Part shown: in pieces, positions 35,933-38,034 of the stretch
How the letters are laid out: each line of letters opens with the position of its first letter
Position numbering within the stretch: position 1 is the first letter of the stretch
The notes under the pieces: model-generated
Told to the model about the DNA's origin: nothing
Database searches by the model: none
What the model saw: the letters and a program-made list of their open reading frames with translations, nothing else
Position numbers and translations under genes: made by a program
Origin: Pseudomonadota bacterium
GTDB lineage: Bacteria > Pseudomonadota > Gammaproteobacteria > Xanthomonadales > Rhodanobacteraceae
NCBI GenBank assembly: GCA_021815695.1
Contig: JAKAZT010000003.1
Location: 1-45,535 of the forward strand
Direction: 5' to 3'
DNA: 45,535 nucleotides

Positions 35933-36844
35933 TTGAACATCCTGCGCATCGCCACCCGCCGGAGCGCGCTCGCGCTGTGGCAGGCCGAACACGTCGCCAC
36001 GCTGCTGCGCGCGGCGCACCCGGGGCTGGTCGTCGAATTGCTGCCGATGACGACGCGCGGTGATCAGGTGCTCGATCGCACCCTGGCCGAGCTTGGCGGC
36101 AAGGGGCTGTTTATGAAGGAGCTGGAAGTGGCGTTGCTGGAACGCCGCGCCGATCTGGCCGTGCACTCGCTCAAGGATGTGCCGGCGGAGCTGGAACCCG
36201 GGTTCGCGCTGGCTGCGGTCTTGCCTCGCGCCGATGCCGCCGACGCATTCGTCAGTTCGCGCCACGATGCGCTGGCGGCGCTGCCGGCCGGCGCACGCGT
36301 CGGCACGTCCTCGCTGCGGCGCACCGCTCAGTTGCGTGCGTTGCGGCCCGACCTGCAGATCGTCGATCTGCGCGGCAACGTCAACACGCGCCTGGCCCGG
36401 CTCGACGCCGGCCACTACGACGCGATCCTGCTTGCCGCGGCCGGGCTCGAGCGCCTGGGTCTTGCGACGCGCATCCGCGCACGCCTCGCCGCACCGGACT
36501 GGCTGCCGGCGCCGGGGCAGGCTGCGATCACGGTGGAGGTCCGCGCCGGCGATGCGCGCGTGGCCGAATTGCTGGCGCCGTTGGAAGATGCCGACACGCG
36601 CACCGCAGTCCGCGCCGAACGCGCCCTCAACGCCGCGCTGGGCGGCAGCTGCACGGTGCCGGTGGGCGCCTGGTGCGTGGTCGGCGAGCGCGGGCTGAGC
36701 CTGTACGGCATGGTCGGCGATGTCGCCAGCGGGCGCCTGCTGCGCGCGGAGGCCGACGATGCAGCATCGGCACCGGAGCGGCTGGGCCGGACGGTCGCCG
36801 CCGCGCTGCTGGCGCAGGGCGCAGGAGTGCTGCTCGGACGCTGA
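35933..36844 (+). CDS. hemC: Porphobilinogen deaminase (hydroxymethylbilane synthase)
   Basis: A 303-residue enzyme joining four porphobilinogens to make hydroxymethylbilane in haem synthesis. [19 protein letters not shown] opens the protein, [20 protein letters not shown] and HSLKDVP follow, and GGSC contains C240, the attachment point of the dipyrromethane cofactor. The start is TTG at 35933 with GGGAG 11 bases upstream; no better start exists. hemD does not follow; the next sequence is the palindromic element and a convergent gene. The algZ-algR-hemC order is conserved in this lineage. Confidence 0.94.
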
Positions 36845-36925
36845 CGCTGGCCGCACGAAGTGCGAGCCTGTGGATCCCCGACGCTTGCGCCGCCGCGGCG
36901 CGCATTTGCGACGCTGCCCGCAGCG
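36845..36925. other. Short spacer after hemC with two small hairpins
   Basis: CGCAC-GAA-GTGCG (36852-36864) and a GC-only dyad GCGCC-GCCGC-GGCGC (36887-36901) lie between hemC and the 165-bp palindrome. Either could help end the hemC transcript, but no T-tract follows. Confidence 0.35.
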
Positions 36926-37090
36926 CTAGTGCGGTGTCTCGGGAATACGCATCCATCATTCCCGCGTCTTTCGGCGCGATACGGCGTTGCGCCTCGTCGC
37001 CATAGCGCGGCTATGACTCCTCGCCGCGCCTTGTTTCGCACCGAAATCCATCTGGAATTGCCGGCGCGTACTTCCGAGACACCCCACTAG
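36926..37090. repeat. 165-bp centred imperfect palindrome with CTAG ends (MITE-like)
   Basis: The two 25-base ends are inverted copies matching at 22 of 25 positions (GTGTCTCGG at left, CCGAGACAC at right). Further in, TTTCGG at 36969 region pairs with CCGAAA near 37042. The apex is a perfect hairpin CATAGC-GCG-GCTATG at 37001-37015. The centre of the ends and of the apex is the same base, 37008. Both outer borders are CTAG, which could be a 4-base target duplication or the tips of the repeats. The right CTAG contains the TAG complement that stops the DUF481 gene. No ORF of note lies inside. It resembles a non-autonomous mobile element; no second copy was seen in this window. Confidence 0.75.
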
Positions 37091-37914
37091 AAGTTGTAAA
37101 CCAGATTGGTCGTCAGCAGGGTGTCGGTCTTGGCGTTACCGGTCGCCACGCCGCTGGCGATCGCGGCGCCGATGTTGCTGTTGTGGCGCGCCTGGTAGCC
37201 GACCTTCAGCGCCAGCCGCTTGTTCATGTCCACCACCAGATTGGCATCGTTCTGGGTGAAGGTGTTGAAGCTGGCCGCCTCGATCAGCAGGTGATCCTCG
37301 ATGCGGGTGCTGGCGGTCAGCTGATGGCGGAAGGCCATCAGTCCGCGGCCGATCAGCGCGCCGCGCTCCTGGCTGATGCCGGCCTCGCGATAGCGCTTGT
37401 AGCCGGGGCCGACCTCGAAGGCCAGTTCGGTCGCCGGGGTCTTGATCACGGCGCGGTCATAGCCCACCGACACCACGGTCTGGTAGCGGTAGGGCGAAAA
37501 ATCGTCGTGGTCGTAGCGCAGATCGCTGAACAGCGCATTGCGGTCGTCCAGCTTCAGGCCGGACGCGGCGTCGAAGGTGTAGCGGTTGGCGGTCACCGCG
37601 AAACGGTTGAACGTGACCGGCTGGCCGTTGACGACGGTGGCCGTGCTGATCTCGCCGCGGCTGCGCAGGGCGCTGAAGTCGAAGGTGTCCTTCCACTCGC
37701 TGTCTTCATAGCTGAACTTGAGACCCGCGTTGAGGCTCTGCGAGCGGGTGTTGCCGGTGGTGGCGGCAAGGCCCAGCTGACCCTCGCCGTTCCAGCCGGT
37801 GCTGGTGGCCGTCGGCAGGCGTGCGCTGCCGGGCAGGGCGGTGCTGTCGTCGGCACGGGCGCTGGCCGACAGCAGGGCGAGAGCGAACAGCGGGGCGATC
37901 AGATGCGTGCGCAT
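37087..37914 (-). CDS. DUF481-type outer-membrane beta-barrel protein
   Basis: A 275-residue protein with a signal peptide (about 1-20, ending SARA) and alternating beta-strand pattern ending in VYNF, as in outer-membrane barrels. GWNGEGQLGLAATTGNTRSQSLNAGL is the start of the DUF481 (YdiY-like, salt-induced) domain, split here for length reasons at residues 38-63. The function is unknown. The ATG at 37914 was chosen since a longer frame to 37974 puts a non-signal leader in front. Its stop codon TAG is made by the end of the 165-bp palindrome, so the last residues may have been set by insertion of that element. Confidence 0.87.
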   Translation of the reverse strand: MRTHLIAPLFALALLSASARADDSTALPGSARLPTATSTGWNGEGQLGLAATTGNTRSQSLNAGLKFSYEDSEWKDTFDFSALRSRGEISTATVVNGQPVTFNRFAVTANRYTFDAASGLKLDDRNALFSDLRYDHDDFSPYRYQTVVSVGYDRAVIKTPATELAFEVGPGYKRYREAGISQERGALIGRGLMAFRHQLTASTRIEDHLLIEAASFNTFTQNDANLVVDMNKRLALKVGYQARHNSNIGAAIASGVATGNAKTDTLLTTNLVYNF

Positions 37915-38034
37915 GAGGGGTCCGGAAGGCGGGCGATGGAAGCAAAAGACCGCGCGTGATGGTGGCGGTTCCACGAGCAGACCGCGAGTCTGCCAGCGCG
38001 ACGGGTCCGGATCGAGAGGCGCCGCCGCGATCGT

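Follow-up and report, generated by a model that had tools for sequence, protein, structure and literature searches.

A palindromic element inserted at CTAG between hemC and a DUF481 gene, and the conserved hairpin core found in it and in other proteobacterial repeats

The hemC/DUF481 junction

The window analyzed here is a stretch of 45,535 nucleotides (contig JAKAZT010000003.1, positions 1 to 45,535, assembly GCA_021815695.1) from a Pseudomonadota bacterium of the family Rhodanobacteraceae. In it hemC and a DUF481 gene converge on a 165-bp palindrome that has CTAG at both ends. This setting was described in an earlier reading made from the letters alone (the sequence-only reading), and it is confirmed by the TIGR00212 and PF04338 matches of the two genes. 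The features of the locus are as follows.

35933-36844, plus strand: hemC (TIGR00212)
36845-36925: spacer of 81 bp between hemC and the element, missing in genomes G006 and G007 (sequence comparison)
36926-36929: left CTAG, containing the first of the two duplicated target TAs, at 36927-36928 (from the sequence)
36929-37087: element proper, very probably a MITE, 159 bp, beginning with G and ending with C (from copies, and from the ends and empty sites of another copy)
36929-36940, plus strand: left terminal inverted repeat, GTGCGGTGTCTC, matching IS630-family ends such as those of locus L129 and genome G053
36969-37046, minus strand: structured core, positions 1-78 of core model R2, 89.2 bits
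36982-36990, minus strand: conserved GCAACGCnG of the core, with the AAC bulge (sequence; conservation in 43 cores)
37001-37015, minus strand: apical hairpin of the core (sequence; paired, with covariation)
37028-37033, minus strand: conserved CAAGGC of the core, with the AA bulge (sequence; conservation in 43 cores)
37076-37087, minus strand: right terminal inverted repeat, GTGGGGTGTCTC (sequence and comparison of ends)
37087-37090: right CTAG, whose TA at 37088-37089 is the other duplication copy; its CTA, read on the minus strand, gives the TAG stop of the DUF481 gene
37087-37974, minus strand: DUF481 gene (PF04338; no NCBIfam match)

The 25-base ends of 36926-37090 are inverted repeats at 22 of 25 positions about a center at 37008, which is also the center of the apical CATAGC-GCG-GCTATG at 37001-37015. 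Between ends and apex lie TTTCGG, starting at 36969, and CCGAAA, starting at 37041. The palindrome is imperfect, with an ungapped match of 46 of 82 positions over the whole arm. A check of the letters upheld this geometry as it had first been described, and also the statement that the symmetry is stronger than chance: 22 of 25 is reached by none of the 45,041 other 165-bp stretches of the window, the best of which has 19. When the inner 135 nt were folded as RNA, the minus strand was far better than its shuffles (-67.5 kcal/mol, z -5.24, with 0 of 200 as good) and the plus strand slightly better (-50.1 kcal/mol, z -1.97, with 9 of 200 as good).

The DUF481 gene stops at the TAG of the right-hand CTAG, and to the letter it is true, as the sequence-only reading had it, that the palindrome supplies this codon. 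The same stop is nevertheless present in a CTAG in G006 and G007, two genomes of the same genus that lack the element at this locus; there the tails of the two genes overlap in ..CGCTAGAAG.., with both stops in one CTAG. Since one CTAG ends both genes in these relatives, the DUF481 stop is, judging by this comparison, older than the insertion and was preserved by it. The stop of hemC in the window is a TGA, which the 81-bp spacer follows, and it is not provided by the element. In genome G004 the two genes are separated by a spacer of similar length containing a GC-rich inverted repeat, as seen by eye. At the corresponding junction in G009 (L111:1-96, L102:1-8) the identical CTAG between the two stops is the starting point of another palindromic repeat, distinct from this one (GGAACCCTC... 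/ ...ACCTTCC), and the contig breaks there.

Copies, target site and IS630-family partners

In its own genome the element gave 20 BLAST matches at 16 places, with 78 to 100% identity. Copies were found in three of the 12 other genomes of the genus, G006 (18 matches), G007 and G009, and in G035, a genome of another family; across the order the number of genomes with a match was 15 of 250, its own included. The sequence-only reading had held that a lack of copies in related genomes would count against a mobile repeat, and such copies exist. Candidates scored per genome in the multi-genome searches numbered 3 (order), 7 (class) and 11 (phylum), and the copy numbers are therefore lower bounds. The phage and plasmid collections contained no element match, and none was found in plasmids searched with an IS right end.

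Among 61 end pairs, 34 had an intact CTA..TAG and 55 at least one intact side. The spacing was 155-170 bp in 44 of them, the set taken by this length for further study, and 161-165 bp, both TAs included, in 42 of the 44. Elements of 155-170 bp fall into two families with about 75% identity. Longer forms of 235 and 305 bp (L058, L061, L239, in G035 and G045) have additional hairpin sequence in the middle, and 109-bp elements in G045 (L244, L245, L246) resemble plain internal deletions of an IS630 element, left end joined to right. At several loci (L024, L030, L065 and L066 in G035, L228 in G006, L072 in G087, and L156) elements abut each other or an IS630 element, with one CTAG in common.

The target site can be seen at copy L002: in G006 and in G007 alike, its two flanks are joined through one CTAG. 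These are exact empty sites of the kind that the sequence-only reading had proposed looking for, and the net insert of 161 bp corresponds to the 159-bp element plus one TA. When the window locus is compared with its own empty sites, the right junction is exact and the left flank differs by the 81-bp spacer. Insertion of IS630-family elements takes place into TA, with duplication of the TA, according to PMC2170065.

Transposase genes between the same ends, which had also been suggested as a thing to look for, were found in other genomes. G053 has a complete IS630-family element (NF033545) with ends matching those of the window element, and TAGTGTGGTGTCTC is matched at 14 of 14 positions in L129. 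In G035 an IS with matching ends lies at contig ends, the IS element itself being unassembled there, and insertion sequences with matching ends are present in named genomes including Rhodanobacter sp. FW104-R8, Comamonas testosteroni and Acidovorax temperans. The ends were examined at 25 of the 80 IS630 loci found; 21 of the 25 had an inverted end match of at least 12 of 14, most of them starting TAGTGT, and four were without such ends. A more distant IS630 element, with ends CTAGTGTTCTGTCCC, occurs in G009, a member of the same genus. No DDE_3 transposase was found in the element's own genome (assembly 87.9% complete, in 188 contigs) or in the one-contig genome G081, the latter having ten element-length end pairs.

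MITEs of the IS630 type are already known. The copies in its own and other genomes, the exact single-CTAG empty sites, the TA duplication and the IS630-family elements with the same ends bear out the proposal that the palindrome is a MITE, and it is with high confidence that we assign it to the non-autonomous transposons of the IS630/Tc1-mariner kind. An IS630-family transposase made by a full-length element would recognize the GTGYGGTGTCYC ends and excise the MITE, which would then be pasted into the TA of a CTAG with duplication of the TA. Since DDE_3 gave no match in the genome carrying the element, we infer that such a transposase acts in trans.

With G as its first base and C as its last, the element rebuilds CTAG on both sides when it enters a CTAG target, and any gene whose stop there reads C-TAG therefore keeps its stop codon. 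A preference of IS630 for CTAG was reportedly described by Tenzen and Ohtsubo in 1991, going by their title. The tetranucleotide is depleted, with seven occurrences in the window against 128 expected from base composition; two of the seven are the element's and the other five are intergenic. At 14 further loci of the same genome there were five CTAGs outside elements, of which three were intergenic, one at a stop and one within a gene, as judged with a purpose-built gene caller. The rarity of CTAG in genes should direct insertions to intergenic DNA and gene ends. The CTAG rule also offers a simple reason for gentle insertions, the target being rare in genes and rebuilt together with the stop codon. 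Around 91 elements, 70 gene ends face the element, and at 20 elements the stop of a called gene is the element's TAG itself, 14 of them on the 5′ side of the strand designated R and six on the other side; natural stop and truncation were compared at the window locus only.

The folded core

The inner 78 bp or so of the element form a conserved folded core, which on the minus strand reads CAAGGC, an apical ATAG/CTAT hairpin, and GCAACGCnG. In an alignment of 37 whole elements, 95.1% of pair cells were standard pairs, compared to 83.8% in shuffled alignments and 29 to 48% when the structure was slid; covariation was 0.349 compared to 0.152 in shuffled alignments, and 31 of 53 pairs had changes on both sides. 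A set of 43 diverse cores gave 94.1% paired (64.6% shuffled) and covariation of 0.732 (0.190 shuffled, 0.09 to 0.17 slid), the core structure being favored over slid versions by having been derived from the same sequences. Pairs with changes on both sides numbered 20, compared to 17.6 in shuffled cores, and this number was reached by 8 of 500 shuffles. Alignment A3 excludes L008, L033, L042, L207, L214, L217, L231 and L242 and includes L070; alignment A6 excludes L007, L009, L036, L070 (anchors missed by the script), L217, L251 and L253.

Of 369 genomes of the class, 63 matched a model of the whole element; of 398 genomes of the phylum, 129 matched the 78-position core model, including members of several families outside the class; both counts include the element's own genome. 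Within the window the core model's best match after the element had 18.5 bits. Over 230 kb of IS loci it had one strong match, at L156, which by sequence is such an element beside an IS630. Apart from the apical hairpin and the constantly spaced CAAGGC and GCAACGCnG, the aligned sequences have little in common, outer stems and ends being different. Behind ends of the type TAGGGCCTGTTAACAC the core was found at three places in the one-contig genome G384 and at seven more loci with both ends, with TA at both borders, and further end types around it are AGGGGGTGTTAACA and ACCCGTGGCG. At five loci with TAGGGCCTGTTAACAC-type ends or neighborhoods (L277, L285, L288, L293, L296) a second core lies beside the first in opposite orientation, the second match being weak in L277 and L285.

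Many MITEs are shortened insertion sequences. The interior of this element is a conserved hairpin module and not a shortened transposase gene. Its recurrence behind different ends suggests that the cargo is selected, not the ends alone, and the core is a concrete motif with which the persistence of hairpin MITEs could be investigated. Searches of Rfam gave no family match in the window at gathering score, and nothing on the elements of seven loci at gathering score or of 20 loci at E up to 1. A below-threshold Ysr276 match lies outside the element in L270 (677-864).

The paired changes might have arisen without selection, as a by-product of DNA metabolism in which template switching corrects one arm of a long palindrome against the other. 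Such correction seems to happen: in L217 (G081) the arms are, by eye, nearly perfect copies of each other, as if one had templated the other. The comparison of G-U with A-C changes within lineages also fits, having given no sign of strand-specific selection (14 v 15 on pairs common to the folds of both strands, 29 v 23 on the union of the folds, and 27 v 18, p 0.23, on R-strand pairs). Correction of the arms should, however, erase bulges, and yet conservation is higher at the unpaired internal positions of the core than at the paired ones (entropy 0.74 v 1.12, p 0.005), and the unpaired letters stay the same behind different stems. Arm correction could explain part of the covariation but not the conserved bulges, and as the source of the structure it is rather unlikely.

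It is the R strand that has the better fold in 43 of 44 family copies, and likewise in 47 of 49 wider elements or cores, some of which are near-identical. Unpaired internal positions are 78% purine on the better-folding strand, and part of the asymmetry may be inherited with these purine-rich loops. Continuing strand-specific RNA selection was considered and is unsupported, the G-U and A-C changes within lineages being about equal. Effects on mRNA stability are reported for ERIC and Correia elements, and the main role of the hairpin could likewise be in cis, setting the stability of a neighboring mRNA whose 3′ end it forms, here the mRNA of the DUF481 gene, whose sense strand is the better-folding one. 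The gene context of 91 copies was 12 convergent, 20 divergent and 41 tandem; the count omits L029 and L034 (the insertions of L003 and L008, judged by identical flanks), L013, L266, L271, other fragments and core-only elements. Tandem sites were sense in 25 cases and antisense in 16, and genes ending at the element's TAG favored sense in the 14 to 6 proportion given above. The two ratios fall short of significance (p 0.21 and 0.115), and divergent genes flank 20 copies, so a main role in cis appears improbable. The bidirectional intrinsic terminator that the sequence-only reading had also entertained, retained between convergent genes for that role, did not hold up and is hardly credible: the element folds well and lies between such genes, as do 12 of the 91 copies, but no terminator-like site (a hairpin followed by a T-tract) occurs in 36700-37300, the divergent and tandem sites are more numerous, and G006 and G007 lack the element at the locus.

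Tentatively, we prefer to read the core module as a folded single strand, most likely of RNA, to which a factor shared by these bacteria would bind. The earlier suggestion of a structured RNA that has spread was right as to the conserved structure, with its strong covariation; its RNA nature and function belong with this proposal. On the widest form of the reading, which we put forward with similar reserve, the window element would belong to a superfamily of mobile hairpins that extends across the proteobacteria and is defined by a strand-specific core fold, in which AA and AAC bulges flank a GGC/GCC stem and an apical hairpin is present. The core would be a separately conserved module, combined with several unrelated transposon ends, and a widespread host factor would recognize it as RNA or single-stranded DNA; the Correia elements of Neisseria would form one branch of the superfamily.

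Comparison with known repeats

No description of the core, or of a link between Correia elements and repeats elsewhere, was found by title or abstract in a literature search whose coverage left out most subscription papers, and novelty in print is not certain. REP and BIME sequences are short hairpins tied to the HUH (RAYT) transposase TnpA_REP, and the TA duplication and IS630 ends of the window element point away from them. The IS630-family MITEs, exemplified by RUP with IS630-Spn1 in a review (PMC2229807), are likewise short, carry no transposase gene, have the ends of an IS630-family element and duplicate TA. The window element differs from them in a folded core that recurs with other ends, in the CTAG rebuilt on both sides, and in being rich in G+C.

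The 168-bp YPAL or RU-2 repeats of Yersinia are also palindromic, but the CAAGGC/GCAACGC pair at core spacing was not seen when the sequence given in PMC2759123 was compared by eye. ERIC (or IRU) is a palindromic mobile repeat with TA at its ends, and the ERIC sequence printed in that paper has, by eye, some letter resemblance (AAGGCG, AACGCAG). The core model had no match at E up to 10 in the E. coli ERIC locus (L310), and ERIC as a relative is therefore unsupported.

The core resembles the Correia elements, also known as NEMIS or CREE, which are described as confined to Neisseria in PMC2649163. They too are hairpin elements, and the short form contains the letters CAAGGC and GCAACGC. The core model, built without them, was run against 13 viral contigs fetched by a 31-base Correia pattern; it gave nine matches on Correia sequence in eight of the 13 at E up to 0.1, the best with 31.3 bits and E 1.2e-5, where the E-values are rough and the matched copies are close relatives, not independent. 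When nine Correia contigs and the ERIC locus were searched with filters off, the top match was the short element of L299 (25.1 bits, E 3.5e-4), followed by fragments of two long Correia elements (19.8 bits). The viral contig of L299 also has two Rfam sRNA-Xcc1 matches above gathering score, at 178-262 and 697-781. The Correia ends, TATAGTGGATTAAC.., compared by eye with GTGYGGTGTCYC here, are absent from the window element; the long form has an additional insert, and the Correia core scores far below other members. On the evidence of these matches, which is good but not final, the Correia elements may belong to the hairpin-core family. RNase III processing and IHF are both associated with Correia elements and, if these do belong, would become a lead for a much larger group.
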